From positions 73,890-137,889 of the forward strand of contig JACPAE010000004.1 of the NCBI GenBank assembly GCA_016181005.1: a stretch of 64,000 nt of DNA, given 5' to 3'. This document shows positions 38,590-43,373 of the stretch, in pieces. Position numbers and translations under genes: made by a program. Each line of letters begins with the position of its first letter. The stretch's first letter is position 1. This DNA is from Candidatus Aenigmatarchaeota archaeon. Lineage in GTDB: Archaea > Aenigmatarchaeota > Aenigmatarchaeia > CG10238-14 > SCSR01. The notes under the pieces were generated by a model. The model had not been told where the DNA came from, did no database searches, and saw only the letters and a program-made list of their open reading frames with translations.

Positions 38590-39906
38590 ATGAAACCTAT
38601 TAGAACACTCATCATGGGAGCAGCTGGCAGGGACTTCCATAACTTCAACATGGTTTTCAGAGATAATCCAAAGTACAAAGTTGTTGCTTTCACTGCCACA
38701 CAAATTCCTGATATTGCGAACAGAAGTTATCCAAATGAATTATCCGGAAAGTTGTATCCCAAAGGAATCCCAATATATCCGGAAATAGTTTTAGCCGATT
38801 TAATTAAGAAATTAAAGGTCGATTTAGTCGTTTTCGCTTACAGCGATGTTAACCATGAGTATGTGATGCACAAGGCTTCGATTGCTTTAGCAAACGGCGC
38901 TGATTTTGTTTTACTTGGGCCAAATTCAACAATGCTGAACTCTTCCAAGCCTGTAATTTCCGTCACTGCAGTAAGAACTGGTGCTGGCAAAAGTCAGACG
39001 TCTAGAGCGATAGCAGAAATTCTTAGAAAACATGGTAAGAAAGTTGTAGCCATTAGGCACGGGATGCCTTACGGAAATCTCTTAAAACAAAAATGTCAAT
39101 GGTTTGCAAGTGCGGAAGACTTTAAAAAACATGACACAACAATAGAAGAAGAAGAGGAGTATCAGCCTTGGATTGATCATGGATTTGTTGTGTATGCTGG
39201 TGTGGATTATGGAGAGATATTAAGAGAAGCAGAAAATGAGTCGGATGTCATCATTTTCGATGGTGGAAATAACGACTGGGGATTTATCAAATCTGATTTG
39301 TACATAGTGGTTGCCGATCCACATAGACCGGGTCATGAATTAACTTATTATCCAGGATTTGTTAATTTCTTGTCAGCAGATGTAATTGTTATTAATAAAA
39401 TCGACAGTGCCAAGAAAGAAAATATAGAAATTGTTAGACAACATGCAAAGCAATACAATCCGAAAGCAAAGATTATTTTGGCAAAATCACCAGTAACAGT
39501 TGACAAACCTGAACTGATTAGAAATAAGCGTGTAATTTTAACTGAAGATGGGCCTTCTCTTACCCATGGTGGTATGCCTTATGGCGCAGGATCCATTGTT
39601 GCAAAGAGATATAAATGTAAAGTGGTTAATGCCCAAAAATATGCTGTCGGCTCTATCAAAAAAGTTTACAAAAAATATCCGCATTTAAAGAACGAACTGC
39701 CGGCTATGGGATACAGTAGCAAACAAATCAAAGAGTTGGAAAAAACAATAAATTCAGCAAAATGTGACGCTGTTATCGATGCTACTCCTGCTAATCTTTC
39801 ACGAATCTTAAAAATCAATAAACCAATCGCCAATGTAACCTACGAAATGGGAAAAGAAGCTGTTAAAAGTTTGGAAGCAATATTGAAAAAAACAAAGTTT
39901 ATTTAA
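38590..39906 (+). CDS. COG2403 P-loop protein (cyclic 2,3-diphosphoglycerate synthetase-like)
   Basis: A 438-residue protein. The N-terminal Rossmann-like motif is IMGAAGRDFHNFNMVF, and a P-loop sits at about residue 136 in VRTGAGKSQTSRAIAEIL. A later segment, VVADPHRPGHE, is typical of the family. The automatic name is cyclic 2,3-diphosphoglycerate synthetase-like; the true role is not settled. In this locus its likely partners, carbamate kinase and ornithine carbamoyltransferase, are pushed 3.4 kb downstream by the DGR and homing-endonuclease-like genes. Confidence 0.78.
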   Translation: MKPIRTLIMGAAGRDFHNFNMVFRDNPKYKVVAFTATQIPDIANRSYPNELSGKLYPKGIPIYPEIVLADLIKKLKVDLVVFAYSDVNHEYVMHKASIALANGADFVLLGPNSTMLNSSKPVISVTAVRTGAGKSQTSRAIAEILRKHGKKVVAIRHGMPYGNLLKQKCQWFASAEDFKKHDTTIEEEEEYQPWIDHGFVVYAGVDYGEILREAENESDVIIFDGGNNDWGFIKSDLYIVVADPHRPGHELTYYPGFVNFLSADVIVINKIDSAKKENIEIVRQHAKQYNPKAKIILAKSPVTVDKPELIRNKRVILTEDGPSLTHGGMPYGAGSIVAKRYKCKVVNAQKYAVGSIKKVYKKYPHLKNELPAMGYSSKQIKELEKTINSAKCDAVIDATPANLSRILKINKPIANVTYEMGKEAVKSLEAILKKTKFI

Positions 39907-41096
39907 TTATTGAATTTTCTGAATAAATGATTTATCGAATTTGGTGTCACACCTATTTTAAAATTATCAAACACGTATTCACTAACATTACCACCAGACA
40001 CGCCCCTTTTCTTTAAATACATAATCATTTCTTTCACTTTCATATCAATCTCCTCTATGCTTTTATAATTTTCGATCATACTAACTAACTTTTTGAGTTT
40101 GTTTTTTCTTCCTTTTGCGTATTTGAAAATAGATATTTTTTCGGCAGTCAAAATACTTTTCCTATTATGGATGCTAACAGCATCACCATCTAAATAAGCA
40201 TCTATATTCAATTTTCTCAGAAGCTTGATAATAAACTGTTGGTTTGGTTCACATGATAGTTCTATTCTCCAAAAATTATGTGTGCTACCATCCCCATCAT
40301 AAAGTCCTTGTAAAAACGGTATAATAAAACTTTTTGGACATGAGAAAATCCATTTCATTTTAACTTTATCGTATGTGGTTCTTTCATTAATATCAAGACC
40401 CAATAGAGATTGAAGTAAATAGCGAATAAAGGGTGATTTTTCGGTTATCCATCTATATTCACCATAAGGAGCTCTTTCTCTATAGTCAACATGATCTTTG
40501 ATTCTATGAGCAGTTATTCCTAGTGTAATGAAATATTTACATACATTATCACCAATATCCAAATCCCAATCATATCTTCTTGTCAGCGAAATTAAACATT
40601 GATTAGAAAATCTATATCCAAGAGGTTTCGAAGTATCACTGACCATCATACCCAAAATATACGCCAATGCCTTTTCTTTTAGACCCACGTTTTTATTACG
40701 GTTTCCTAACTGTTTTAGTATGAAAATGATTTCATCGTAAAACTTTATTTCCATCGGTACTTTAATAAAATCAAAGTACGCATGGCCTCCCTTTTTAGAA
40801 TGAAGGGGCAATAGCTTGTGTCTTATGTTTAGTCTACAGTTAGGTATTGAAGAAGCAAGAACATACAGATAAGGTTTAGACTTATTGAGATATCTATTAA
40901 CACAATTTCTAGGTAGTTTGAGCCTTTTTTCTATTGAGATATAAGTGAATCCTTTCTTTCGTAGTTTATTTACTAGGAAATAATTTTTACATCTTTTCAT
41001 ATGAATTGCATAAAACTCCCCAGAGGTAAGATCACTGTAAAAATAAAGATTCTTCAATCTTCTTTCGACATCTTCCCACGAGTTAAACTTGTTCAT
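39903..41096 (-). CDS. LAGLIDADG homing-endonuclease-like protein
   Basis: A 397-residue protein from the ATG at 41096 (a TTG at 41129 is possible). LAGLIDADG motifs are LAYILGMMVSDTS (about residues 158-170) and FLQGLYDGDGS (about 269-279). N-terminal and C-terminal segments with ISIEKRLKLPRNCVNRYL and VTPNSINHLFRKFNN look like helix-turn-helix domains. It stands alone, not inside an intron or intein. It is convergent with the COG2403 gene and adjacent to the DGR, so both may be part of one insertion. Confidence 0.82.
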   Translation of the reverse strand: MNKFNSWEDVERRLKNLYFYSDLTSGEFYAIHMKRCKNYFLVNKLRKKGFTYISIEKRLKLPRNCVNRYLNKSKPYLYVLASSIPNCRLNIRHKLLPLHSKKGGHAYFDFIKVPMEIKFYDEIIFILKQLGNRNKNVGLKEKALAYILGMMVSDTSKPLGYRFSNQCLISLTRRYDWDLDIGDNVCKYFITLGITAHRIKDHVDYRERAPYGEYRWITEKSPFIRYLLQSLLGLDINERTTYDKVKMKWIFSCPKSFIIPFLQGLYDGDGSTHNFWRIELSCEPNQQFIIKLLRKLNIDAYLDGDAVSIHNRKSILTAEKISIFKYAKGRKNKLKKLVSMIENYKSIEEIDMKVKEMIMYLKKRGVSGGNVSEYVFDNFKIGVTPNSINHLFRKFNN

Positions 41097-41188
41097 ATGA
41101 AACACCTTATAACTTCTATCGTATATCAATTAGTTACGTTACTATATAAAGCTTTCGGAGGGGTTCATTTCCCACATCATTAACAACA

Positions 41189-41197
41189 TTTAAATCC
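41189..41197 (+). promoter_or_regulatory. Promoter box of DGR target gene 1
   Basis: TTTAAATCC starts 30 bases before the ATG at 41219, as expected of a leaderless archaeal gene. The 13-base string ATTTAAATCCTTT is shared with the region upstream of DGR target 3 (51378-51390). Confidence 0.6.
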
Positions 41198-41218
41198 TTT
41201 GCTATGCTCTATTTAACT

Positions 41219-41908
41219 ATGACAACAACCAGCCAGCTATACCTGCCAATAAAAGGCATGCAATACTCAGTTATACCGGAAGTGTCTCTTCTTGGAAAAG
41301 ACTTGTGGGAAGCGCAATTATACGCCCAGGATAATGGACTGGTAGTCTTGTCTTCTCCTGACATAAACAGGCTGGCAAGAGCCGTAAAGGGCGACAATCC
41401 AGACAGGCAATTCCTAAGATACGCAAGGGAACAGGCTGAAAAGCAAGGAACTTCATTAAACGACAACGACGCAAAAGACGGATATAAACGGCTTCATGAC
41501 GGATTATGGAAACAATACGTTGCTATAGCAAGGGAAATTCTTGTATGGACAAGAGACGCACAACCTATTAATCACCCCATGATTGTTTTGAAAGATATGC
41601 CTGTAACGTCCCATCTAATAACGGACTATAGAGTTGAAAAGCAGGGCGACGGCTATAGAATAGTCGAAGCTGTTGTAACGTCAGCCAACTGGATGAAAGA
41701 GGACGGGGCAATAACTCCTGAAATGGCACAATTGTTAGGCGCCGAACCCAATACACATGTCTGGACAAATCCAAATCCTGATTATGAAAATGGACTGAGG
41801 GCTCTCGGGTGGGACTTCAGGGGCCGTGAGAGGCCGTACCTGGTCTCGGACTGGGAGCCTTGGGACAGGAACTCCTATGGGGGTTCGCTTTTGGGTAGAA
41901 GGCTGTAA
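41219..41908 (+). CDS. DGR variable target protein 1
   Basis: A 229-residue protein that begins MTTTSQLYLPIKGMQ. It has no signal peptide and no clear membrane segment. The last 35 residues (195-229) are encoded by the variable repeat (41801-41896) and read GWDFRGRERP, then SDWEPWDRNS and YGGSLLGRRL. This GC-rich, adenine-poor tail contrasts with the AT-rich body. DGR targets usually end in a C-type-lectin-like ligand-binding fold; that is plausible but not proven here. The ligand is unknown. The template repeat and reverse transcriptase follow downstream. Confidence 0.8.
   Translation: MTTTSQLYLPIKGMQYSVIPEVSLLGKDLWEAQLYAQDNGLVVLSSPDINRLARAVKGDNPDRQFLRYAREQAEKQGTSLNDNDAKDGYKRLHDGLWKQYVAIAREILVWTRDAQPINHPMIVLKDMPVTSHLITDYRVEKQGDGYRIVEAVVTSANWMKEDGAITPEMAQLLGAEPNTHVWTNPNPDYENGLRALGWDFRGRERPYLVSDWEPWDRNSYGGSLLGRRL
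41801..41896 (+). repeat. DGR variable repeat (VR)
   Basis: These 96 bases at the 3' end of target 1 align with the template at 42145-42270 after removing two 15-base blocks from the template. There are 14 substitutions, all at template adenines (A to G nine times, A to T four times, A to C once); none of the 70 non-adenine positions differ. This is the mark of adenine-specific mutagenic retrohoming. Confidence 0.9.
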
Positions 41909-42000
41909 GCTGTAAATGAAACATTAACAATTAGATTTATTCTATAAATCATAATTCTATATTCCTGGGCTATTGCTGGACAATGATGAAGGCAATGTCT

Positions 42001-42098
42001 GGGCTACACGCCTGTCCATAGCGCATTAGGGCTTTTTCCGTTTGGCCATGAAATACAGAGGCGACAGATAGTAGCTATGACGGATGACATGACTAGTG
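42001..42098 (+). repeat. 98-nt DGR-associated repeat, copy A
   Basis: It lies between target 1 and the template repeat. It matches 52104-52200 with three substitutions and one T-run length change. It contains stop codons and no conserved protein frame. It may be part of the DGR RNA, a remnant of an accessory gene, or a recombination element. The rest of the 41909-42144 spacer shows no gene. Confidence 0.8.
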
Positions 42099-42144
42099 CG
42101 AAACCTGAAGCTTCAGTGAAAACTTGGTGGATGGGCTAAGATAA

Positions 42145-42270
42145 GCTCTCAGGTGGAACTTCAGGGACCGTGAGAATATGTATCACGAAAGGCCGAACCT
42201 GAACTCGAACAGGGAGCCTTGGAACAGGAAATCCAACGACCTGATCTCCAATAGGGGTTCGCTTTTGAAT
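42145..42270 (+). repeat. DGR template repeat (TR)
   Basis: A 126-base non-coding template just upstream of the reverse transcriptase (24 bases from its ATG). Read in the VR frame it is rich in AAC and AGG codons (RWNFRDRE, then PNLNSNREPWNRKSN), the usual composition for adenine mutagenesis. It has two extra in-frame 15-base blocks (42175-42189, 42235-42249) that the VR lacks. Confidence 0.9.
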
Positions 42271-42293
42271 AACCCAGACCGCCCAGGATTTTT

Positions 42294-43373
42294 ATGAAGA
42301 CGTACAATAAAATCTTTAACAAACTATGCTCCTTAGAGAATCTTAAACTGGCATTCAAAAAAGCCAAGAAAGGCAAAAGCAAGAAATGGTACGTAAAGGA
42401 ATTTGAATGCAATTTGGATAATGAATTGACGAAATTAAAAATGGAACTGGATAATCAAACCTACAGACCACAGACATTAAAGAGATTCATAGTAAGAGAT
42501 CCGAAAACAAGGGTCGTTCACGCATCAGCTTTCAGAGACAGAGTAGTTCATCATGCTATATGCAACATAATAGAACCTGTATTCGAGAAGATTTTCATTA
42601 ATGACAGCTATGCCAACAGGAAGAAAAAAGGAACTCTTTCGGGATTAAATAGATTCGACAAATTCAAACATAAAGTTACTAGAAATCGTGAGTTATTAAG
42701 GAGTGCTAAAGACGGCAATATGACTGTAGGTTATGCCCTAAAAGCAGATATAAGGCATTATTTTGATACTGTTGATTTGGAAATCCTAATGGAAATCATC
42801 CAAAAGAAGATAATCGACAGCAAAGTCCTGCGGTTAATAAAAGCAATTCTGGACAACCATGATTTCAAAACTAAAGGAAAGGGAATGCCTCTTGGAAATT
42901 TAACGAGCCAGTTTTTCGCTAATGTCTATCTTAATGAGTTGGATTATTACGTGAAGCACAAACTCAAGGTAAAATATTATATTCGATATGTGGATGATTT
43001 TGTTATTCTGCACAGGTCTAAAGAAAAACTAGCGCTGTACAGGTGGATGATAGACAACTTTCTAAAGCAGAGACTTAAGCTCGAATTGCATCCTGAGAAA
43101 TCGAAAATCGTCCCCTTACATTATGGCGTAAAGTTACTAGGTTTTCGTGTGTTCTACTACTATAAGCTACCACGGAAAAGCAATCTAAGGATTTTTGAAA
43201 AGAAATTAAGTATCTATACATTGACACCCAGAGAGAGAGAGAGCATATTGAAAAACTGAATAAAATACTTGAAGGGGTGGTTTGGTTACGCTGCACAAGG
43301 AAATACTTACAAATTGAGAAAGAGAATTGTTAAAAGAACCAATAATATGATTCGAAATCAAATAAAATTATGA
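42294..43373 (+). CDS. DGR reverse transcriptase, C-terminal frame disrupted
   Basis: The open frame gives 321 residues and stops at 43257-43259. Catalytic motif YVDDFVIL is at about residues 230-237, and PLGNLTSQ, the DGR/retron-type motif 4, at about 199-206. The missing tail follows: HIEKLNKILEG is in the -1 frame, then WFGYAAQGNTYKLRKRIV returns to the first frame up to a stop at 43371-43373. One AG unit fewer at 43230-43243 and one G fewer at 43274-43277 would restore about 358 residues. The core motifs are intact; loss of the thumb tail may or may not stop activity. Confidence 0.82.
43230..43243 (+). repeat. (AG)7 tract within the reverse transcriptase gene
   Basis: Seven AG units. Removing one unit would open the frame leading to HIEKLNKILEG. 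With the G4 run at 43274 the tract decides whether the reverse transcriptase tail is translated. Confidence 0.75.

Follow-up and report, generated by a model that had tools for sequence, protein, structure and literature searches.

Candidate bulge-helix-bulge introns in the template RNA of archaeal diversity-generating retroelements

The template repeat (TR) of a diversity-generating retroelement (DGR) in a Candidatus Aenigmatarchaeota genome contains two short segments that are missing from the variable repeat (VR) of its target gene. The geometry of these gaps and their recurrence in two classes of DPANN archaea make it very likely, on the sequence evidence, that the template RNA is interrupted by small bulge-helix-bulge (BHB) introns that would be spliced before mutagenic reverse transcription. 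The window in which the element was found is the whole 64,000-nt stretch of DNA that was analysed.

Results

The window encodes an archaeal DGR

A preliminary description of the window had proposed a DGR in an archaeon, with target gene, VR, TR and reverse transcriptase (RT) in the classic order. That proposal is borne out by the adenine-specific differences between TR and VR, by the LGNLTSQ motif of the RT, which is of DGR type, and by the profile matches and phylogenetic placement of the RT given below; all four parts were recovered in place, with the TR limits refined (Table 1). The VR lies inside the target ORF, and the non-coding TR begins 234 nt downstream of the target gene and adjoins the RT, which starts 21 nt after it. 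Aligned exon by exon with adenines left free, TR and VR are identical at 71 of 71 non-adenine positions and the VR is altered at 16 of the 29 TR adenines, so that all 16 exon differences fall on adenines, far beyond chance. Most archaeal TR/VR pairs share a fixed terminal difference, TR GAATR versus VR GGGTR or GAGTR, that looks like IMH* versus IMH.

The RT matches RVT_1 (E 1e-22), and its profile match to the RT of PDB 8ub7, which we take to be the BPP-1 DGR enzyme, is far stronger than that to the best group II intron RT (E 3e-59 versus 4e-29). In a quick tree made up of archaeal and phage DGR RTs, the archaeal enzymes form one clade (SH-aLRT 99) beside those of the phages. Motif, profile match and clade point to a DGR-type RT and not to one of a group II intron or retron. 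The spliced TR used as a query against the genome matches only the TR itself and the window VR, and no further target was found in this way. All Pfam, PHROG and NCBIfam families fall below threshold for the target protein, and its single-sequence structure model (pLDDT 36) is unusable for recognizing a C-type lectin fold. The absence of an Avd accessory gene, also noted in the preliminary description, agrees with the window ORF list, which holds no Avd-like ORF between target and RT, and with a PF05635 search of the window's genome that was silent; it is a tentative result, since the controls of that search were silent too.

Two observations concern the surroundings of the element. The same-genus target pair (window 41219-41908; L099:2868-3710) looks circularly permuted, and the N-terminal segment of the window target, GKDLWEAQLYAQDNGLV, sits after the VR in L099 (GEDLWETQLYVQKNGLV). 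The DGR-adjacent gene at 39903-41129 on the minus strand has a weak LAGLIDADG_3 match (E 0.03) and is possibly a homing-endonuclease relative.

Table 1. Features of the DGR and its predicted introns in the window; slashes mark predicted cuts
Feature	Coordinates	Strand	Basis or remark
DGR target gene, 229 aa, VR at 3′ end	41219-41908	+	ORF list
VR, continuous, without introns	41799-41898	+	A-tolerant alignment to TR
IMH-like VR 3′ end, GGGTAG (TR: GAATAA)	41893-41898	+	Recurring TR GAATR versus VR GGGTR or GAGTR
TR, three exons and two predicted introns	42143-42272	+	TR/VR alignment
TR exon 1; CGTG 42169-42172 is the 5′ strand of BHB central helix 1	42143-42174	+	
Predicted TR intron 1, 15 nt, CGTG-AG/A-atatgtat-CACG-AA/A	42175-42189	+	VR alignment; local RNA fold CGUGA/UCACG
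TR exon 2; CAGG 42225-42228 is the 5′ strand of BHB central helix 2	42190-42230	+	
Predicted TR intron 2, 15 nt, CAGG-AA/A-tccaacga-CCTG-AT/C	42231-42245	+	VR alignment; local RNA fold CAGG/CCUG
TR exon 3, IMH*-like end GAATAA 42267-42272	42246-42272	+	
DGR-type RT	42294-43373	+	Open to TGA 43257-43259; C-terminal part 43260-43373
(AG)7 tract, candidate phase-variation site	43230-43243	+	G9 at homologous site of same-genus RT; (AG)7 in same-family RT

The gaps between TR and VR have BHB geometry

The repeat had been described as a match to the 3′ end of the target gene, but TR and VR are not collinear: the match falls into three pieces, and the TR-VR offset shifts from 344 to 359 to 374, since the VR lacks two 15-nt segments of the TR. 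The classic gene order is therefore an incomplete description, as the TR is split by two BHB-like introns and the RT is interrupted in this assembly close to a dinucleotide tract. The archaeal BHB motif consists of a 4-bp helix with a 3-nt bulge on either side, and the splice sites lie in these bulges (PMC4090602). Both window segments have a central helix with four of four base pairs between two 3-nt bulges, and each begins inside one bulge, after a 4-nt strand that is retained in the VR, and ends inside the second, after the complement of the retained strand. The BHB is cut after the second nucleotide of the bulge, and canonical cutting reproduces the VR at both gaps with zero non-adenine mismatches. 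For intron 2 the two retained bulge bases have to be the 5′ AA and not the 3′ AT, and its joined product CAGG-AA-C is then exactly the VR. Two points count against splicing: the closing helix on the exon side has 0-3 contiguous pairs only, many introns having a weak outer helix or one relaxed relative to the strict hBHBh′ form, and in local RNA folding the window introns are not unusually stable compared with shuffled sequences. The two window segments, viewed as predicted BHB-type introns with a relaxed outer helix, thus show the tested features with the exception of a strict outer helix.

The VRs of same-genus L002/L099 and same-family L003/L100 likewise lack these two segments, which measure 15 and 18 nt in the former and 15 and 21 nt in the latter, and the central helix carries compensatory changes among the window, L099 and L100 (CGTG/CACG, CGTG/CGCG and CACG/CGTG). 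A rival possibility is that the RT jumps hairpins in unspliced RNA during cDNA synthesis and so deletes them from the VR, an idea with some appeal because the segments do form hairpins in local RNA folds and RTs are known for template switching. If a hairpin were jumped, its stem should be lost entirely, but the 5′ strand and two bulge nucleotides always stay and the 3′ strand is lost, an asymmetry that equals BHB cutting geometry and on which we rejected hairpin skipping. Against it also stand the gap ends, which are constant across species at homologous sites, and the related phage RTs, for which 29 TR/VR pairs from the same search lack such gaps, with a single exception of 3 nt. We accordingly regard hairpin jumping as improbable.

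BHB-like gaps recur across two DPANN classes

Of the 156 genomes in the window's class, to which L009 also belongs, 27 carry a relative of the RT, as do 70 of 281 in a second class, that of L010 (Nanoarchaeota); a phylum-wide search gave the same result as the class search. Together the two classes hold 49 TR gaps of 15-58 nt in 28 TRs, with one to three gaps per TR, after tail gaps in L009, L098, L149, L159, L160 and L169 and a split gap in L074 had been set aside as local-alignment artefacts. The best BHB register lies within the VR-permitted junction interval in 47 of the 49. For the main set of 39 introns in 19 TRs, with the register searched within 12 nt on either side, 38 registers fall inside the VR-permitted set versus 8.1 expected from the set sizes. 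A full 4-bp central helix with at least two inner pairs occurs in 28 of these 39, compared with means of 0.3 in shuffled, 0.7 in displaced and 2.1 in chimeric nulls, the last combining 5′ and 3′ halves from different loci; registers were picked within the allowed set, which mildly favors pairing, and the nulls were given equal freedom. The second class was scanned once the BHB rule had been fixed, and 9 of its 10 introns fit; the second intron of L162 is a misfit. Each helix position is paired in 39-45 of 45 distinct introns, with at least four standard pair types, and the predicted BHB central helix covaries widely.

One site exists as two alleles, intron-less in L092 (AACAGGAACGACAAC) and interrupted in L085 (AACAGGAA, the intron, then CGACAAT), and the L092 site is the exact product expected from splicing L085 (AACAGGAAC...). 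Ungapped TRs are found in L010, L011, L012, L092 and about 10 members of the second class. The early archaeal branches of the quick RT tree are all intron-bearing, with losses or gains later.

Intron length is divisible by three in 35 of 48 cases, though the TR is non-coding. An intron that is always removed needs no length rule, and this bias therefore counts against splicing. It may mean that an unspliced copy now and then arrives in the VR, where the frame must be kept, but it is no more than a hint because homologous introns are not independent.

Exons continued to be copied after species diverged

The TRs of the window, L099 and L100 differ at 16 exon columns, and each VR agrees with the TR of its own species at 43 of 43 non-adenine cells, spread over all three exons. 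As read from these alignments, copying into the VR has reached every exon but no intron since the three species split, which calls for an intron-free intermediate. The same agreement argues against a single DNA-level loss from the VR, or gain in the TR, combined with old or patchy homing that never carried the segments. The in-frame stop in the window RT gives that account a foothold, since homing may have ceased, but own-TR matches on both sides of the gaps mean that copying went on after divergence, and the pattern occurs in 28 TRs with differing intron positions and lengths; we consider it very improbable. That this is an ordinary DGR whose gaps are assembly or alignment artefacts is barely credible even for contigs from MAGs, given that the genomes are independent, the exon junctions are exact, the helices covary and the same pipeline yields controls without gaps.

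The RT gene is interrupted near slippage-prone tracts

The RT ORF (42294-43259) stops at an in-frame TGA at 43257, whereas the RTs of relatives are about 35 residues longer (GWFGY..NTYKLR); in the window that C-terminus can still be read in the same frame to 43373. The interruption comes just downstream of the (AG)7 tract. The site of the (AG)7 tract is in frame in both the same-genus and the same-family RT. Relative to both, the window RT has an extra G at 43274-43277, which leaves it two indels away from an open frame. A BHB intron around the TGA was sought, and only weak AT-rich candidates were seen, none of which cleanly restores the conserved C-terminus. RTs of other genomes that are split at residue ~190 were likewise considered as intron-bearing and rejected, the frameshift coinciding instead with poly-G or (GA)n.

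Tracts of poly-G (7-12) or (AG)n/(GA)n stand at a few fixed sites of DPANN DGR RTs, often with the frameshift there. Elsewhere among archaeal DGR RTs, three places repeatedly hold poly-G or (GA)n, one at the start and two around residues 185 and 312; tract-bearing RTs comprise that of the window (43230-43243) and those of L171-L180, L182, L099, L100, L143, L148, L167, L084-L092 and L094. Tract density is 25 in 74 kb of RT versus 8 in 206 kb outside, a comparison in which 11 loci were preselected for a split RT. These patterns suggest that DPANN DGR RTs are likely subject to phase variation by slipped tracts. They resemble poly-G and dinucleotide phase variation elsewhere, for example in Bordetella and Campylobacter, in having slippage-prone coding tracts at frameshift points (PMC1891110, PMC8355987), and differ in concerning archaeal DGR RTs, for which length switching is a prediction. 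For the window RT itself, assembly error or decay is a possible alternative to phase variation, and DGR activity in the window may be off or lost, the RT being interrupted.

Splicing machinery is encoded in the same genome

The genome of the window (G000) encodes a tRNA-splicing endonuclease (PF01974; G000:C5:69040-69318), the RtcB ligase (G000:C2:74457-75833) and many tRNAs with predicted introns, and the endonuclease is found in 140 of 155 genomes of the class. The rtcB gene (L106) itself appears to contain one or more short inserts, one with a strong BHB motif (CGAT-AT/T, 31 nt, 9 inner pairs), and production of the ligase may itself require that the rtcB mRNA be spliced at a BHB.

Discussion

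The adenine-specific transfer from TR to VR, the gap geometry, the covarying BHB structure and the continued copying of exons can be read directly from the sequences. From them we infer an order of events in which the TR region would be transcribed, the host tRNA-splicing endonuclease would cut each BHB in both 3-nt bulges, each time behind the second nucleotide, and RtcB would ligate the TR exons, all ahead of reverse transcription. The RT would then copy only the joined exons, misreading adenines, and the cDNA would take the place of the target gene's VR, with replacement beginning close to the GAATR/GGGTR boundary. Control of the RT through slipped-tract phase variation would lie one step further from the observations. 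The introns could possibly hinder TR and VR from recombining as DNA, could license the spliced RNA, or could be neutral passengers. A broader reading, to which we give even chances, is that this DPANN clade of DGRs depends on the tRNA-splicing machinery, with introns by which the template is marked, protected or licensed and the target is rewritten only from spliced RNA, never from TR DNA, and with an RT that is also gated by phase-variable tracts.

The elements resemble known DGRs of the BPP-1 type, including archaeal examples (Paul et al. 2015, PMC4372165), in the order of target-VR, TR and RT, in adenine-specific differences, in a DGR-type RT and in an IMH/IMH*-like boundary. They differ in that the TR is split by one to three predicted BHB introns, no Avd was found, and the RT carries phase-variation-like tracts. 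A text search of the 2015 article (PMC4372165) turned up no gaps, deletions or splicing. Archaeal BHB introns in tRNA, rRNA, cbf5 mRNA and the HVO_1309 5′ UTR (PMC4090602, PMC7714728) share the 4-bp helix, the 3-nt bulges on opposite strands, the cuts inside both bulges and the small size. The introns proposed here differ from them in residing in a retroelement template RNA, and in that the spliced product would be read out into DNA as the VR. Guo et al. reportedly found in 2008 that an engineered td group I intron placed in the BPP-1 TR is removed before homing, pointing to an RNA intermediate. The td intron was a laboratory marker and self-splicing; those described here would be natural, enzyme-spliced and of the BHB type. 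To our knowledge no natural intron in a TR has been known, and literature searches combining BHB with retroelement, DGR with intron, and DGR with phase variation, limited in coverage and including few subscription papers, returned no earlier description.

A practical consequence would be that DGRs with templates interrupted in this way can escape collinear repeat finders or be cut short by them. If the proposed mechanism is correct, a hypermutation template would contain natural introns, splicing would be a required step of retroelement homing, and BHB splicing would extend to a new class of RNA. The VR would be a DNA record of in vivo splicing in uncultured archaea, from which splice junctions can be read without RNA, and the RNA intermediate of archaeal DGRs would be proved through natural marking. 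The tRNA-splicing machinery would in this way be tied to the targeted diversification of proteins, and hypermutation would gain an on/off control from phase-variable RT tracts.
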